Made by a program: the position numbers and the translations under genes
Virus record (IMG/VR): IMGVR_UViG_3300034108_000183
Coordinates: 1 to 31,334 of that record
Length of the DNA: 31,334 bases
Strand: one strand, 5' to 3'
Origin: a virus
Part shown: in pieces, positions 3,157-14,113 of the stretch
Numbering within the stretch: the first letter of the stretch is position 1
Layout of the letters: each line of letters opens with the position of its first letter
Notes under the pieces: model-generated
What the model saw: the letters and a program-made list of their open reading frames with translations, nothing else
The model's database searches: none
Told to the model about the DNA's origin: nothing

Positions 3157-3837
3157 ATGAACACACAAGTTTCAATAGTACAACAATTGCCAATATCAGA
3201 ATTAATGAATTTGGCAAAAGCATTCGCAGAGAGTGGAATGTTTTCAGACACAAAATCAGCAGCCCAAGCAATAGTCAAAATACAAGCAGGGCAAGAAATT
3301 GGCATACCTCCATTTGCCTCAATGACTGGCATTCACATTATACAAGGCAAACCAACAATCGGAGCAGGTTTAATTGCATCAAGGTTAAAAGGTAGCGGTA
3401 AGTATGACTATCGTGTTGTAGAAGCATCTGAAAAGGTTTGCAGCATCGACTTTTATCAAGGTAACACAAAGATAGGTAATAGCACATTTACCATTGAAGA
3501 TGCAAGGAAAGCACTAACAAAGAATATTGATAAATTCCCAAAGAATATGCTATTTGCCAGAGCAATCAGTAATGGTGTGAAATGGTATTGCCCAGACATT
3601 TTTAGTGGGCCAGTTTATGTGCCAGAGGAAATGCAAGTAGTGACAACTGAAGAAGCTACCCACATTGAGGTTGACACAACTATTGATGAGATTATCAATG
3701 ACATTCAAGTGTGCGTTTCACTTGATGAAATCAAAGCAGTTTGGAAGAAATTAACCCTTAACCAAAAAACTGATTTAAGAGTATTAGCAGCAAAAGATGA
3801 AATGAAAACTAAATTAACACCTAAAACCGAAGCATAA
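3157..3837 (+). CDS. RecT-like single-strand annealing protein, 226 aa
   Basis: The protein begins MNTQVSIVQQLPISELMNLA. It carries the conserved pattern of phage RecT/Bet-like annealing proteins: AKAFAESGMFSDTKSAAQAI, VKIQAGQEIGIPPFASMTGI, a central GKPTIGAGLIASRLKGSGKY and a later KFPKNMLFARAISNGVKWYC. The last 60 residues are more variable and acidic. It would anneal complementary strands, working with the SSB-like protein upstream. The start at 3157 follows the repeated leader AACAACTAACAAA, and its stop overlaps the Gp157 start (TAATG). The exact subfamily (RecT, Bet or Erf) cannot be settled by eye. Confidence 0.6.
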   Translation: MNTQVSIVQQLPISELMNLAKAFAESGMFSDTKSAAQAIVKIQAGQEIGIPPFASMTGIHIIQGKPTIGAGLIASRLKGSGKYDYRVVEASEKVCSIDFYQGNTKIGNSTFTIEDARKALTKNIDKFPKNMLFARAISNGVKWYCPDIFSGPVYVPEEMQVVTTEEATHIEVDTTIDEIINDIQVCVSLDEIKAVWKKLTLNQKTDLRVLAAKDEMKTKLTPKTEA

Positions 3838-4331
3838 TGAAACTAACAATCTATCAAATTGAACAAAGCTATAATCAATTAGCAGAAGAATTAATCGAAA
3901 ATGGTGGGGAACTTACCCCATCATTAGAAGAAGCACTTGCCATTACTGAAGAGCAGCTACAGAATAAATCAGTTGCCTATTCATTTGTAATTAAGCAAAT
4001 GGATGCTGATGTTGACATTATTGATGCTGAAATTAAACGATTGCAGGCAGCGAAGAAACAACGTGAAAAGGCTTCAGAATATCTAAAGGAGCGAATTAAA
4101 CACGCAATGGATTTATTCCAGATTGAAGAAATCAAAACACCTTTGGTGAAGATTAACTTTAGAAAATCGGAAACAGTTGAGGTGCAAGATGTGAATGCTT
4201 TGCCATCACTTTACAAGGTGGTAAAGGTAACCGAACAAGCAGATAAGGCTGCAATTAAGGCAGCATTAAAGGATGGTGTTGAAGTTACTGGTTGCAGTAT
4301 AGCAACACATAGGAATTTGCAGATTAAGTAA
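3837..4331 (+). CDS. Siphovirus Gp157 family protein, 164 aa
   Basis: The product starts MKLTIYQIEQSYNQLAEELI and matches the Gp157 layout. A helical N-terminus is followed by a long coiled coil (about residues 60-100, with DAEIKRLQAAKKQREKASEY), then a C-terminal beta region (INFRKSETVEV, SLYKVVKVTEQADKAAIKAA, GVEVTGCSI). The family is named for a phage-encoded protein linked to phage resistance in streptococci and is found beside SSB and annealing genes. Its ATG shares a base with the upstream stop. A hairpin terminator follows at once, so it closes the early operon. Confidence 0.8.
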   Translation: MKLTIYQIEQSYNQLAEELIENGGELTPSLEEALAITEEQLQNKSVAYSFVIKQMDADVDIIDAEIKRLQAAKKQREKASEYLKERIKHAMDLFQIEEIKTPLVKINFRKSETVEVQDVNALPSLYKVVKVTEQADKAAIKAALKDGVEVTGCSIATHRNLQIK

Positions 4332-4383: not shown

Positions 4384-4547
4384 CCGCAACGTTGCAACAC
4401 ATTGAAAGGCAAATTATTTACAATATAGAATATAAAAAAATGGTAAAATATTATTTTTTAATTTTTTGGAGATTCAATGTGGTAAAGTGTTGCAATCTGC
4501 ATAGGAGTAAGCACACATTGAGCATTCAACTTGTTGCGGATTGTTGC
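4384..4547. other. Repeat-rich AT island, candidate replication origin
   Basis: The pentamer GTTGC or its complement occurs six times here (4386, 4391, 4394, 4489, 4533, 4543), including the palindrome GCAACGTTGC at 4386-4395. TTGCAACACATTGAA at 4392-4406 is matched in inverted orientation by TTCAATGTG (4473-4481) and GTGTTGCAA (4487-4495), and CACATTGA recurs at 4514-4521. The repeats flank a very AT-rich stretch at about 4407-4470. The position just ahead of the primase-helicase gene fits an origin with initiator-binding sites. An operator array is the alternative. Confidence 0.4.
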
Positions 4548-4558
4548 TATGTGTTTTA

Positions 4559-4590
4559 TTTGTTTATTACAATATTTATCTTTACATTTA
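4559..4590 (+). promoter_or_regulatory. Weak candidate promoter for the replication operon
   Basis: TTTG at 4559-4562 and TACATTTA at 4583-4590 are spaced by 20 nt. The -7 box departs from TAnnTTTG only in its last base. If used, the transcript would start near 4594 and carry a leader of about 125 nt before the primase ATG at 4719, covering the small ORF and the hairpins described below. Confidence 0.4.
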
Positions 4591-4615
4591 CAAACCGATT
4601 TTAAATAATAATAGA

Positions 4616-4714
4616 ATGATACAGATTCTAAATAATAATATTGGCAGAAATGCCAACAACAAACCATCTACTTACTTGGCTGTATCCCTTGTAAGAGATG
4701 GTTTTGTTTTCTAA
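4616..4714 (+). CDS. Small upstream ORF, 32 codons, possible leader peptide
   Basis: ATG at 4616 opens a 32-codon frame ending TAA at 4712-4714, four bases before the primase ATG at 4719. The product begins MIQILNNNIGRNANNKPSTY and ends VRDGFVF; six of its first 15 codons are Asn. The frame runs through two hairpins and a T-rich stretch (4641-4704 and after), which is the arrangement of a leader peptide over an attenuator. It might equally be a small protein coupled to the primase by its spacing, or a chance frame in AT-rich DNA. Confidence 0.4.
   Translation: MIQILNNNIGRNANNKPSTYLAVSLVRDGFVF
4641..4656 (+). promoter_or_regulatory. GNRA-type tetraloop hairpin in primase leader
   Basis: TTGGCA, GAAA, TGCCAA form a perfect 6-bp stem with a GAAA tetraloop, an unusually stable RNA hairpin type. 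The TTGGC at 4676-4680, in the loop of the next hairpin, could pair with GCCAA at 4652-4656 instead, so the two structures may compete or form a pseudoknot. Confidence 0.5.
4661..4710 (+). terminator. Terminator-like hairpin within primase leader
   Basis: AAACCATCT plus CTTAC (4661-4675) pairs with GTAAG (4691-4695) plus AGATGGTTT (4696-4704). This makes a 14-bp stem with one bulged A and a 15-nt loop, followed by TTTTGTTTT partly overlapping its 3' arm. It looks like an intrinsic terminator placed before the primase. An in-frame ATG at 4698 is buried in its 3' arm, which argues against that ATG being the primase start. Confidence 0.5.
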
Positions 4715-4718
4715 TATT

Positions 4719-7112
4719 ATGATAGTAACAATTTATAAATCTCTAAAAGAGGTTACCAATGGATTTCAACGTGATGTCAACTATGTTTTTGAGCGAATTC
4801 GGTCTGGTAAGTCACAAAAGTTAATTGAACAAATTCAAGCAGAAACTGATGAGGAAAAGCAGCAGGCATTAAAAAAAGAATTGCCAGCAATCAATTTTCA
4901 AGGTGTTTTTAAGGAAAGAAACGATAAGGGCATAAAGCAATTTAGCGGTTTGATGCCCCTTGATTTTGATAAGTTCAAAGATAAGGCAGAAATGATTGCT
5001 TTAATGGATTCTTTGCGTGATGATGAGTATGTGTTCGCAATGTTTATTTCGCCTCGTGGAAATGGCTTTAAATTGATAATTAAGATACCTTTAGATGGGG
5101 CATCAAATTACAAAGGTTATTTTGATTCTCTAAAGAACTATTTTGATTCTGATTATTTTGATGTTAGTAGTAGTAACATTTCAAGGTTATGCTATGAAAG
5201 CTATGACCCAAACATTTACATTAACCCAAACGCATTAATTTATAACGAAGTTGAAGAGCCAGAGTATAGTGATATAGGCACTATTACACCAATCTTTGCA
5301 ATCAATTCTGATAATAGAATAATTTCAAACCTTTTAACTTGGTGGAAGAAGAAGTATGGTAATACTAAAGGCAGCAGAAACACAAACCTTTTCAAGTTAG
5401 CAATGGCATTGAACTGCTTTGGGATAGATAAACACGAAGCATTGAATGTGCTTAACGAATTTCAAGAAAGTGATTTTACATTGTCTGAAATTGAAACCTT
5501 ATGCAAATCTGCCTATAAAAAGTCAGAGGTACACGGAACAAGATTCTTTGAGGATAATGCCATAAAGTTTAAGATTGAAAAGCAAGTTAGGCAGGGAAAA
5601 TCTGCAAAAGAAATAATTAAACTATTGCCAGATGTTGACCCTAAAAAAATTGAGGAAGCATCGGAAACTATAAGAGAAAATATTGATGTTGAAGATTACT
5701 GGTCATTTGATGACAAAGGCAAATTTAAATTGTCACCACATAAGTATAAGTTTTGGCTGGAGAACAACAACTTTTCTAAATTCTTCCCAACGGAAAGCAA
5801 AACATTTACGTTCATTCAGATTGACCAAAACCAAGTGGAAGAAACCAATGAAAAAAGAATAAAAGATTATGTGCTAAACAATTTAATGGAGCGCAAAGAT
5901 ATTGGGTATTCACCTTATGATTCAATGGCATCATCAACGAAAGCATTTAACATTGATTTTCTTGGTTTACTTGCATCTGCCAACATTAAGATTAAAGAGG
6001 ATACTCAAGATGAGATATTTCTTTACTACAAAAATTGTGTTGTTAAAATTACTAAAGATTCATTCGAAACTATTGACTACCTTGATGTTGATGGTTACGT
6101 TTGGAAGAATCAAATCATTGATAGAGATTTTGCAATTAAAGACCATCACAATAGTGAATATAGAAGTTTTATCTGGTATATTGCAGGGGAAAATAAACAA
6201 AAGTATAATACTTTTAAATCAGTTATAGGCTACCTTATGCATAGCTTCAAGACATCTGCCAATAATAAGGCAGTAATTTTGAACGATAGTGTAATAAGTG
6301 AAAACCCAAATGGTGGAAGCGGTAAAGGTTTGTTTTGCAATGCTTTAAGTCACTTGAAAAAGGTGAGCAGTATTGATGGTAAAACATTTGATTTTAACAA
6401 ATCATTTCCTTACCAGACAGTATCAACTGATTGTCAATTATTGGTCTTTGATGATGTTAAAAAGAACTTTGATTTTGAGAGGTTATTCTCACTTATTACT
6501 GAAGGTATTACCATCGAATATAAAGGGCAGGATGCAATTAAATTGCCAGTGCAAAAGTCACCAAAAATAATCATTACTACTAACTATACAGTAGGTGGTG
6601 TTGGTGGTTCATTTGAACGCAGAAAGTTTGAGGTTGAACTATCTGATTACTTTAACGCTGGAAACACTCCATTAATGAAGTTTGGCAAACTACTATTCGA
6701 TGAGTGGGATGATGATGAGTGGAGCAGGTTTGACAATTATATGATTCAATGCGCCCAATACTATTTGAACAAAGGTTTGGTAGTTGCGGAATTTGGAAAC
6801 ATTCACACACGCAAATTCATTAAGAATACATCATTTGAATTTTACGAATGGACAAAAACACACGAAGTATTTAGCTTTAACGATAGGCTTTCTAAACGTG
6901 ACAAATACAATGAGTTTCTTGAAGAGTATCAAGATTTTAAGAAGTGGTTATCCCAAAAGAAATTCAAACAATGGTTAGAAAACTATTGCACATTCTATGG
7001 CTACAATTATGCTGAAGGCAATTCCACACCAATAGGCAGATGGTTTACCATTGAGAATGAATCTCAAATGTGGGAAGATTTAAGAAACGAAGAAAAACCA
7101 AATTTTCAATGA
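4719..7112 (+). CDS. Primase-helicase, VirE_N/BT4734-type primase with SF3-like helicase, 797 aa
   Basis: I choose the start at 4719; an upstream in-frame ATG at 4698 lies within a hairpin. The N-terminal ~200 residues match the VirE_N/BT4734-type primase-polymerase domain, with the acidic LDFDKF motif at residues 81-86 and SPRGNGFK at about 111-118. A helical linker resembling a primase C-terminal domain follows (NTKGSRNTNLFKLAMALNCF). The C-terminal half is a helicase: Walker A GGSGKG at 532-537, Walker B LLVFDD ending at 579, and sensor IIITTN ending at 622. The protein would prime and unwind phage DNA, and it heads an operon with a second helicase and a nuclease. Confidence 0.85.
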   Translation: MIVTIYKSLKEVTNGFQRDVNYVFERIRSGKSQKLIEQIQAETDEEKQQALKKELPAINFQGVFKERNDKGIKQFSGLMPLDFDKFKDKAEMIALMDSLRDDEYVFAMFISPRGNGFKLIIKIPLDGASNYKGYFDSLKNYFDSDYFDVSSSNISRLCYESYDPNIYINPNALIYNEVEEPEYSDIGTITPIFAINSDNRIISNLLTWWKKKYGNTKGSRNTNLFKLAMALNCFGIDKHEALNVLNEFQESDFTLSEIETLCKSAYKKSEVHGTRFFEDNAIKFKIEKQVRQGKSAKEIIKLLPDVDPKKIEEASETIRENIDVEDYWSFDDKGKFKLSPHKYKFWLENNNFSKFFPTESKTFTFIQIDQNQVEETNEKRIKDYVLNNLMERKDIGYSPYDSMASSTKAFNIDFLGLLASANIKIKEDTQDEIFLYYKNCVVKITKDSFETIDYLDVDGYVWKNQIIDRDFAIKDHHNSEYRSFIWYIAGENKQKYNTFKSVIGYLMHSFKTSANNKAVILNDSVISENPNGGSGKGLFCNALSHLKKVSSIDGKTFDFNKSFPYQTVSTDCQLLVFDDVKKNFDFERLFSLITEGITIEYKGQDAIKLPVQKSPKIIITTNYTVGGVGGSFERRKFEVELSDYFNAGNTPLMKFGKLLFDEWDDDEWSRFDNYMIQCAQYYLNKGLVVAEFGNIHTRKFIKNTSFEFYEWTKTHEVFSFNDRLSKRDKYNEFLEEYQDFKKWLSQKKFKQWLENYCTFYGYNYAEGNSTPIGRWFTIENESQMWEDLRNEEKPNFQ

Positions 7113-12817: not shown

Positions 12818-14113
12818 ATGAAAAGTAAATTTGAATTATTCCTTGAAACAAAAGGATTAAACACCATATCTTTCGCAAATCAAGAAGCAGAAGAAATGGC
12901 AAAGTTATACAACGAGTATAACGAAGAAGCAAGAAAAGCATTAGAAGATGCGGTTGCTAAAAGTGCAAGCAAAGAAGATATCGAATCTTTGAAATCAGAA
13001 CTTGCTACTGCTCAAAAAGAGCAAATGGTTCAATTGAACAAAACATTGAAAGAATATGGTTTGGCAATTGAAAAGTTAAACAAAGATAACCAAGCAAATT
13101 CTTTAACTGCTCAAGCATCTGATATCAGAAAAGCATTAGAGGAAAACAAAGCAAACTTGACAAAGTTGAAAGACCTTGATAAATCTGCTGCTCACGGTGC
13201 TGGTTTCTCTTTCAAGGCTGCTGGTGATATGTTAGAATCAACTAACATTAGCGGTGGTAATGTGCCAGTTGAACAACGTATTGCAGGCTTAAACTTAATT
13301 GCTACACGCAGACCAAGATTAATTGATTTATTCGCTAAAGGTCAAGCAGCAAGTAACATTATTTCTTGGGTTTACCAAGCAAACAGAGATGGTGCTGCTG
13401 GTGGAACTGCTGAAGGCGCAACAAAGAATCAAATTGATTTTGATTTGGTAGTTGCAAGCCAAGCAGTTGTTAAGCGTACTGCATTCATAAAGGTATCTAC
13501 AGAAATGTTAGATGATATTGATTTCATCGAAAGCGAAATCAGAAATGAGTTGATGCGTTTATTAATGTTAGATGTTGAAAACACATCTTACTCTGGTAAC
13601 GGAACTGCTCCTAACTTAAATGGTATCAGAACAGTTGCAACTGCATTCTCTGCTGGAACTTTCGCAGCTACAGTTGACAATGCTAATAGTGCCGATGTAC
13701 TTGTTGTAGCTATGAATCAAATTGCAATTGCTAACCAAGAAGCACCTAACGCAATATTGATGCATCCTTCAGACATTGCAGCATTGAAGTTAATGAAAGT
13801 TTCTGCAACTGATAAGCGTTATGTTGATAGATTACTTTACATTGGTATGGACTTAACACTTGATGGTGTTCCGATGATAGGAAGCACATTAGTGACTGCT
13901 GGTACATACCTTGTAGGTAACTTTAATTTGTCTGTATTGTACCAAAAGCAAGGTATAATGATTAACATCGGATTAGATGGTAATGACTGGACAAAGAATA
14001 TGCGTACAATCATTGCAGAATGGAGAGGTGCATTAGTAACCAAGAACAACGACAGAACTGCGTTTGTGAAAGGTACATTTGCAACTGATATTGCTGCATT
14101 AGAAACTGCTTAA
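12818..14113 (+). CDS. Major capsid protein, HK97-fold, 431 aa
   Basis: The first ~125 residues are charged and helical (EMAKLYNEYNEEARKALEDA and more), as in the HK97 delta or scaffold domain. After them comes the capsid fold, with VKRTAFIKVSTEMLDDIDFI near residue 217, then NELMRLLMLDVENTSYSGNG and NLNGI, and a C-terminal part with GIMINIGLDGNDWTKNMRTI. The scaffold part is likely removed by the protease upstream. The start two bases after the protease stop, with AAAACATTTAAA as leader, is the only reasonable one. Confidence 0.9.
   Translation: MKSKFELFLETKGLNTISFANQEAEEMAKLYNEYNEEARKALEDAVAKSASKEDIESLKSELATAQKEQMVQLNKTLKEYGLAIEKLNKDNQANSLTAQASDIRKALEENKANLTKLKDLDKSAAHGAGFSFKAAGDMLESTNISGGNVPVEQRIAGLNLIATRRPRLIDLFAKGQAASNIISWVYQANRDGAAGGTAEGATKNQIDFDLVVASQAVVKRTAFIKVSTEMLDDIDFIESEIRNELMRLLMLDVENTSYSGNGTAPNLNGIRTVATAFSAGTFAATVDNANSADVLVVAMNQIAIANQEAPNAILMHPSDIAALKLMKVSATDKRYVDRLLYIGMDLTLDGVPMIGSTLVTAGTYLVGNFNLSVLYQKQGIMINIGLDGNDWTKNMRTIIAEWRGALVTKNNDRTAFVKGTFATDIAALETA

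Follow-up and report, generated by a model that had tools for sequence, protein, structure and literature searches.

We analyzed a viral contig of 31,334 nt (hereafter the window), focusing on the leader of a primase gene that is the first gene of its transcript (Table 1). Genes for a RecT-like annealing protein and Gp157 lie upstream of this leader (3157-4331), and a minus-strand exonuclease gene (phrog_704) is found at the other contig end (29961-31142). The mechanical list of open reading frames started the primase at an in-frame ATG at 4698; its homologues start at 4719. A first-pass annotation had described the promoter as weak, but this is not a weak sigma-70 site: it has the Bacteroidota-type layout TTTG-20 nt-TACATTTA, and the -7 box of the window's close relatives is TATATTTG rather than TACATTTA. 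Two interleaved inverted repeats, of the TTCAATGTG..CACATTGAG and GCAATCTGC..GCGGATTGT type, occupy positions 4473-4555 just 5' of the promoter; the related contigs L002, L005, and L006 retain them, whereas L003, L004, and L018 have different sequence there. In L003 and L018 the stretch from the Gp157 gene to the leader has been exchanged and promoter, leader, and primase remain joined, as though the three travelled as a single module.

Table 1. Features of the primase leader, in window coordinates
Feature	Position	Strand	Details
Bacteroidota-type promoter	4559-4590	+	-33 TTTG 4559-4562; 20-nt spacer; -7 TACATTTA 4583-4590
Hairpin 1 (H1), stem TAGAAT/ATTCTA	4612-4630	+	stem 4612-4617/4625-4630; MFE fold; near transcript 5' end
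32-codon ORF, MIQILNNNIGRNANNKPSTYLAVSLVRDGFVF	4616-4714	+	judged non-functional as a gene
Kissing loop K5, GATACAG	4618-4624	+	entire H1 loop; exact reverse complement of 4680-4686
Linker hairpin TTGGCA-GAAA-TGCCAA, optional	4641-4656	+	MFE fold, alignments
Terminator-like hairpin (hairpin 2 of the element; third in the first-pass annotation)	4661-4704	+	MFE fold
Kissing loop K3, CTGTATC	4680-4686	+	entire apical loop of the terminator-like hairpin
U-tract TTTTGTTT, after the lower stem	4702-4709	+	U-tail score 2.89
BT4734-like/PriCT-1 primase, phrog_28855	4719-7112	+	first gene of the transcript

Fold of the leader and the 32-codon ORF

The MFE fold of positions 4594-4709 (-31.1 kcal/mol) contained all three hairpins that the first-pass annotation had placed before the primase ATG. 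None of 200 dinucleotide shuffles folded equally well (z = -5.3), and the longer fragment 4594-4730 gave z = -4.3. The MFE fold of this longer fragment included an alternative pairing of 4605-4616 with 4709-4720 across the ATG, which was set aside because, by eye, it was not kept in the L007 relatives. The terminator-like hairpin consists of a 9-bp lower stem (4661-4669/4696-4704) and two inner stems (4671-4675/4691-4695 and 4678-4679/4687-4688), and it is followed immediately by UUUUGUUUU / TTTTGTTTT. The U-tail score of the window may be compared with a median of 2.81 for leaders and 0.89 for random positions. The linker hairpin was family specific; elsewhere its place is taken either by another hairpin or by an A-rich linker that is unstructured.

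The central feature of this leader was absent from the first-pass annotation. The loops of H1 and of the terminator-like hairpin, K5 (GAUACAG) and K3 (CUGUAUC), are perfect 7-nt complements, and both were left open by the unconstrained MFE fold. With equal base frequencies assumed, a perfect Watson-Crick match of two given 7-nt loops is expected by chance once in 16,384 cases. This exact complementarity points to a cis kissing loop which, expressed as helices, is a crossing pseudoknot. The element lies directly 3' of the promoter and ends 15 nt before the primase ATG. When the window was scanned blindly for complementary loops, with neither promoter nor U-tract criteria, many chance matches appeared in coding DNA; for this reason promoter, U-tail, and H1 were made mandatory in the search. 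The leader in the window is genuine and beyond chance.

The same region had been proposed to encode a leader peptide or a translationally coupled small gene. The 32-codon ORF is present as described, with 6 Asn among its first 15 codons and its end four bases short of the 4719 ATG. Sampled members of the window's own family keep it open as far as the start of the primase gene, some of them having a TATGA overlap, which would suit a leader-peptide attenuator or a coupled micro-ORF. Against such a role, the changes read in the first part of the ORF were mostly non-synonymous, the frame shifts between clades (64 versus 62 nt from start to loop, 1 versus 2 modulo 3), and an ATG-initiated ORF of at least 15 codons occurred in 5 of 104 diverse leaders, the other 99 having nothing comparable. 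The switch envisaged for this attenuator, a pairing of TTGGC in the loop of the third hairpin with the GCCAA arm of the second, has disappeared from L007 and L009 (GCGGC in both) and is thus not conserved. From these alignments the ORF is evidently not conserved as a protein, and we rejected the peptide reading as very improbable. The other half of that proposal, a structured, terminator-like leader before a replication gene, has held up, as its structure is kept with compensatory changes.

Conservation and covariation of the two loops

We retrieved 80 viral contigs with homologous primases by protein similarity. The window's own family comprised 12 sequences (10 distinct), chosen by primase homology only. 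Comparison with relatives, the check suggested alongside the first-pass annotation, bore out the stems: over 35 base pairs, 95.7% of cells were kept, with 34 double-change cells versus 11.7 ± 2.7 after shuffling. In the terminator-like hairpin, 8 of 16 pairs had changes on both sides. In the L010 clade, one kissing pair has turned from A-U to G-C, giving GATGCAG with the partner CTGCATC, and the outermost pair of H1 from U-A to A-U.

Leaders of distant primases had no obvious sequence similarity to that of the window and the same architecture: promoter, H1, A-rich linker, hairpin 2 with a loop complementing loop 1, U-tract, and ATG. The H1 loop, 6 to 8 nt long across leaders, and the apical loop of the terminator-like hairpin are perfect complements, and H1 mostly starts 2 to 6 nt 3' of TAnnTTTG. 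A loop-paired leader (kissing loop or pseudoknot) was found within 600 nt upstream at 19 of 24 non-redundant primase loci, compared with 2 of 240 shuffled upstream regions. Searching 5,332 TAnnTTTG sites in 273 loci yielded 309 candidate leaders, versus 44 when the downstream DNA was shuffled; the kissing loop of these candidates clustered 9 to 14 nt after TTTG.

The kiss was tested without bias by running a pattern for H1 alone against 2.9 million viral contigs; it returned 116 stretches, corresponding to 75 unique leaders. The fixed letters of the partner loop (the K3 motif) were present in 70 of the 75. Both free positions were complementary in 67 of these 70 leaders, whereas 2000 permutations of the partners gave a mean of 29.9 and a maximum of 39. 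Of the five leaders lacking the motif, L254 shows a G-U wobble at a single position; the other four resemble chance matches within coding sequence.

In a wider alignment of 40 leaders we counted 129 double-change cells versus 34.5 ± 4.6, a figure that is partly circular because these leaders had been picked using the kiss. Compensatory changes affected the lower stem, the inner stem, and H1 alike; the inner stem AAAG/CUUU, for example, is swapped for AGAG/CUCU, ACAG/CUGU, or UCAG/CUGA. At least 54 distinct kissing pairs occurred among the 104 diverse leaders. The H1-only search, the window family, the primase loci, and the homing-endonuclease homologues described below are all free of kiss-based selection. 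Judged by their complementarity and covariation, the two loops are predicted to form a cis kissing-loop RNA, and the comparative sequence data show the leader to be a cis-acting structured RNA element of Bacteroidota phages.

A second type of pseudoknot occupies the same gene position upstream of the primase in L042, L044, L045, L056, L063-L067, and L079 (the sister clade). The loop on its G-rich/C-rich stem (e.g., TTCACTGTT) pairs with AACAGTGAA beyond the U-tract, and the pseudoknot comes in several co-varying versions, some of them repeated again beside the ATG. Its covariation is clean, and it ends 13 to 17 nt before the ATG. Separately, L202, L233, L237, and L247 (GTGAGACG and similar loop classes) have an additional inverted repeat (e.g., CGGTAATCTTTAAACCG) between leader and gene.

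Downstream genes, phages, and hosts

A phage usually carries one to five copies of the element, each with its own loop pair. Among 100 downstream genes we counted matches to HNH_3 (26), NUMOD4 (25), AP2 (7), and GIY-YIG (6), which mark free-standing homing endonucleases, as well as the BT4734-like primase (10) and helicases (5), along with methylases and others; the share of homing endonucleases is inflated, since some loci were fetched through a loop class associated with them. The kissing-loop fold is not specific to primase genes. When loci were fetched by homology to one homing endonuclease, the leader preceded 11 of 12 homologues, the remaining one (L320) being near a contig end. The loop pairs of these leaders differ yet match: GTCGTCG/CGACGAC, GTGGTCG/CGACCAC, GTGGACG/CGTCCAC, GTCGCAG/CTGCGAC, and GTCGTAG/CTACGAC. 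With a GIY-YIG protein as the query instead, most matches were partial or C-terminal and 2 of 12 had a leader, so the association is not universal for this class.

The abundance of HNH proteins downstream (HNH_3 and NUMOD4) raises the idea that the RNA is the guide of an RNA-guided nuclease, like HEARO or omega RNA. We give this hardly any credence: primase, helicase, and methylase genes are preceded by this RNA too, it had no Rfam match, and its partners are NUMOD4-HNH, GIY-YIG, primase, and other proteins instead of the expected IscB. NUMOD4-HNH and GIY-YIG proteins are classical homing endonucleases. A type III toxin-antitoxin system does not fit either: each leader has one copy of the fold and no tandem repeats of the ToxI pseudoknot RNA kind, and the list of 25 Pfam families for proteins encoded downstream has no ToxN endoRNase.

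Within one phage, no pair of loops out of 78 shared 6 nt, compared with a permuted mean of 6; this is no more than suggestive, since the loci had been fetched with one loop class.

The element is also present in cultured phages, namely the hemulen and mumin groups and the elemo group of Flavobacterium phages. Matches to a leader were obtained in 34 phage records from the hosts Flavobacterium sp. LMO6/LMO9; among the matches listed, the leader stands at a gene annotated as endonuclease. In hemulen6-1 one leader lies at about position 13726, before the endonuclease gp037, and a second at about 14761, upstream of the primase region. In the elemo phages of Flavobacterium sp. BAL314 the leader precedes the replication operon, with loops that are different yet matched, as computed for elemoE and seen by eye for elemoA. 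One of the contigs with a kissing-loop leader also carries 18 clustered tRNA genes on both strands (L203:7896-9829).

The element is essentially absent from host genomes. Seven pattern matches were obtained in 84,980 species genomes, one of them real and located on a Bacteroidetes MAG contig, and a covariance model spanning the core subfamily only had a match in 1 of 395 Bacteroidota genomes. No leader matched Rfam 15 at or above the gathering threshold, and lax searches gave chance-level matches only. A nucleotide search of a named phage collection with the window region itself returned no match. Our search of the open-licence literature turned up no phage leader described as a repeated cis kissing loop, and a literature search found no Flavobacterium phage transcriptomes.

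Possible mode of action and known systems

In the leader alignments the base of the lower stem has a near-invariant C-G pair and an A-rich 5' side. The fraction of T was 0.7 to 0.9 over most of the 10 nt after the stem in 104 leaders, compared with 0.16 to 0.55 before other genes on the same contigs. With the U-tract directly adjoining a stem that has a GC base, the arrangement is that of an intrinsic terminator. The distance from the end of the stem to the ATG is 10 to 20 nt in most leaders and about 12 nt in most leaders of homing-endonuclease genes.

We propose the following model. The element begins near the transcription start expected from the promoter, and H1 would form first as the RNA exits RNA polymerase. 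Once the loop of hairpin 2 emerged, it could kiss the H1 loop, and this contact would set the speed and firmness with which the GC-based stem closes beside the U-tract. The leader would then be a promoter-proximal conditional terminator, that is, an attenuator without a leader peptide, and would set the timing or amount of expression of the downstream replication or homing-endonuclease gene. Our tentative preference, at slightly less than even probability, is for such a cis-acting, promoter-proximal gate, a conditional terminator in which the kiss would either promote or prevent termination. Several observations fit it poorly: the loop region enclosed by the hairpin exceeds that of classic terminators, the partner of the terminator-like hairpin's loop in the sister clade lies beyond the U-tract and could not influence termination of the same transcript, and the near-fixed distance between stem and ATG would also suit a role in translation or RNA stability.

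Control of translation or mRNA stability is a close rival. Here a compact 5' fold would gate translation initiation, much as in T4 gene 32 or the mobE leader, or shield the mRNA 5' end against decay, and the U-rich stretch before the ATG would be a landing site for the ribosome (S1). The fold begins a few nucleotides after the -7 box and, as noted above, stops shortly before the ATG; the sister-clade pseudoknot likewise ends close to the ATG; and RNA structure represses translation in the leaders of T4-like homing-endonuclease genes (PMC3014915). The sister-clade pairing beyond the U-tract and the near-fixed distance to the ATG add weight to this reading, but a U-tract that is far richer in T than the upstream regions of other genes on these contigs, and that abuts a GC base as in intrinsic terminators, does not favor it. 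We regard it as a real possibility, though a somewhat doubtful one. The promoter and the terminator-like end could also delimit a free-standing gene for a trans-acting small RNA of about 90 nt, with the neighboring gene incidental. This is improbable, because a gene almost always follows within 10 to 20 nt, the occurrence of the element goes with particular gene families, and the loops vary freely provided that the internal partner matches, which is unexpected of an RNA that binds another RNA.

Returning to the conditional terminator, the element looks like a new type of on/off control. In a broader version that we consider possible but unlikely, Bacteroidota phages would run a multi-gene RNA regulon, in which kissing leaders with private loops on each early or replication gene and homing-endonuclease gene respond to altered conditions inside the infected cell, or to a phage factor, by switching transcription on or off without a DNA-binding protein or leader peptide. 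Little seems to be known about the timing of genes in Bacteroidota phages, and the element offers a compact, repeated, and testable control unit in cultured phages. The shared leader connects replication genes with selfish homing endonucleases, its natural compensatory pairs are a resource for the study of cis kissing-loop RNA, and it is a candidate for a small, portable regulatory part for Bacteroidota.

Among known systems, the leader of T4 gene 32 contains a pseudoknot that is bound by the gene's own product (PMC3014915). The leaders of gene 32 in T4, T2, and RB69 resemble the present element in having a pseudoknot-type RNA toward the 5' side of the message, in belonging to a phage replication protein, and in pairing loop bases over a distance. 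The gene 32 leader, however, is one H-type pseudoknot serving one gene, with gp32 as the ligand (PMC3014915), whereas in the phage element two hairpins kiss, at a promoter, before many unrelated genes, and a U-tract is present. Given the diversity of the downstream products, one common ligand made by the gene itself is unlikely. RNA hairpins are also thought to limit expression in the leaders of the T4-like homing endonucleases I-TevI, Aeh1 mobE, and T4 segB (PMC3014915). Like the present element, these are structured RNAs directly before free-standing or intron-borne homing-endonuclease genes, but they are simple hairpins masking the ribosome-binding site, whereas here a kissing cassette with its own promoter is found, also before replication genes. 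With the trp and his peptide attenuators the element shares leader hairpins and a final terminator-like hairpin near the gene; unlike them, it has neither a conserved peptide nor a conserved, mutually exclusive antiterminator. Fully complementary loops of about 7 nt kiss between two RNAs in pT181 and in ColE1 RNAI/RNAII, and in pT181 this is coupled to a leader terminator. There the loops are on two RNAs, while here both are on one leader and no antisense RNA is evident. A structured leader of the attenuator type is thus of a known kind; its architecture and distribution appear to be new.
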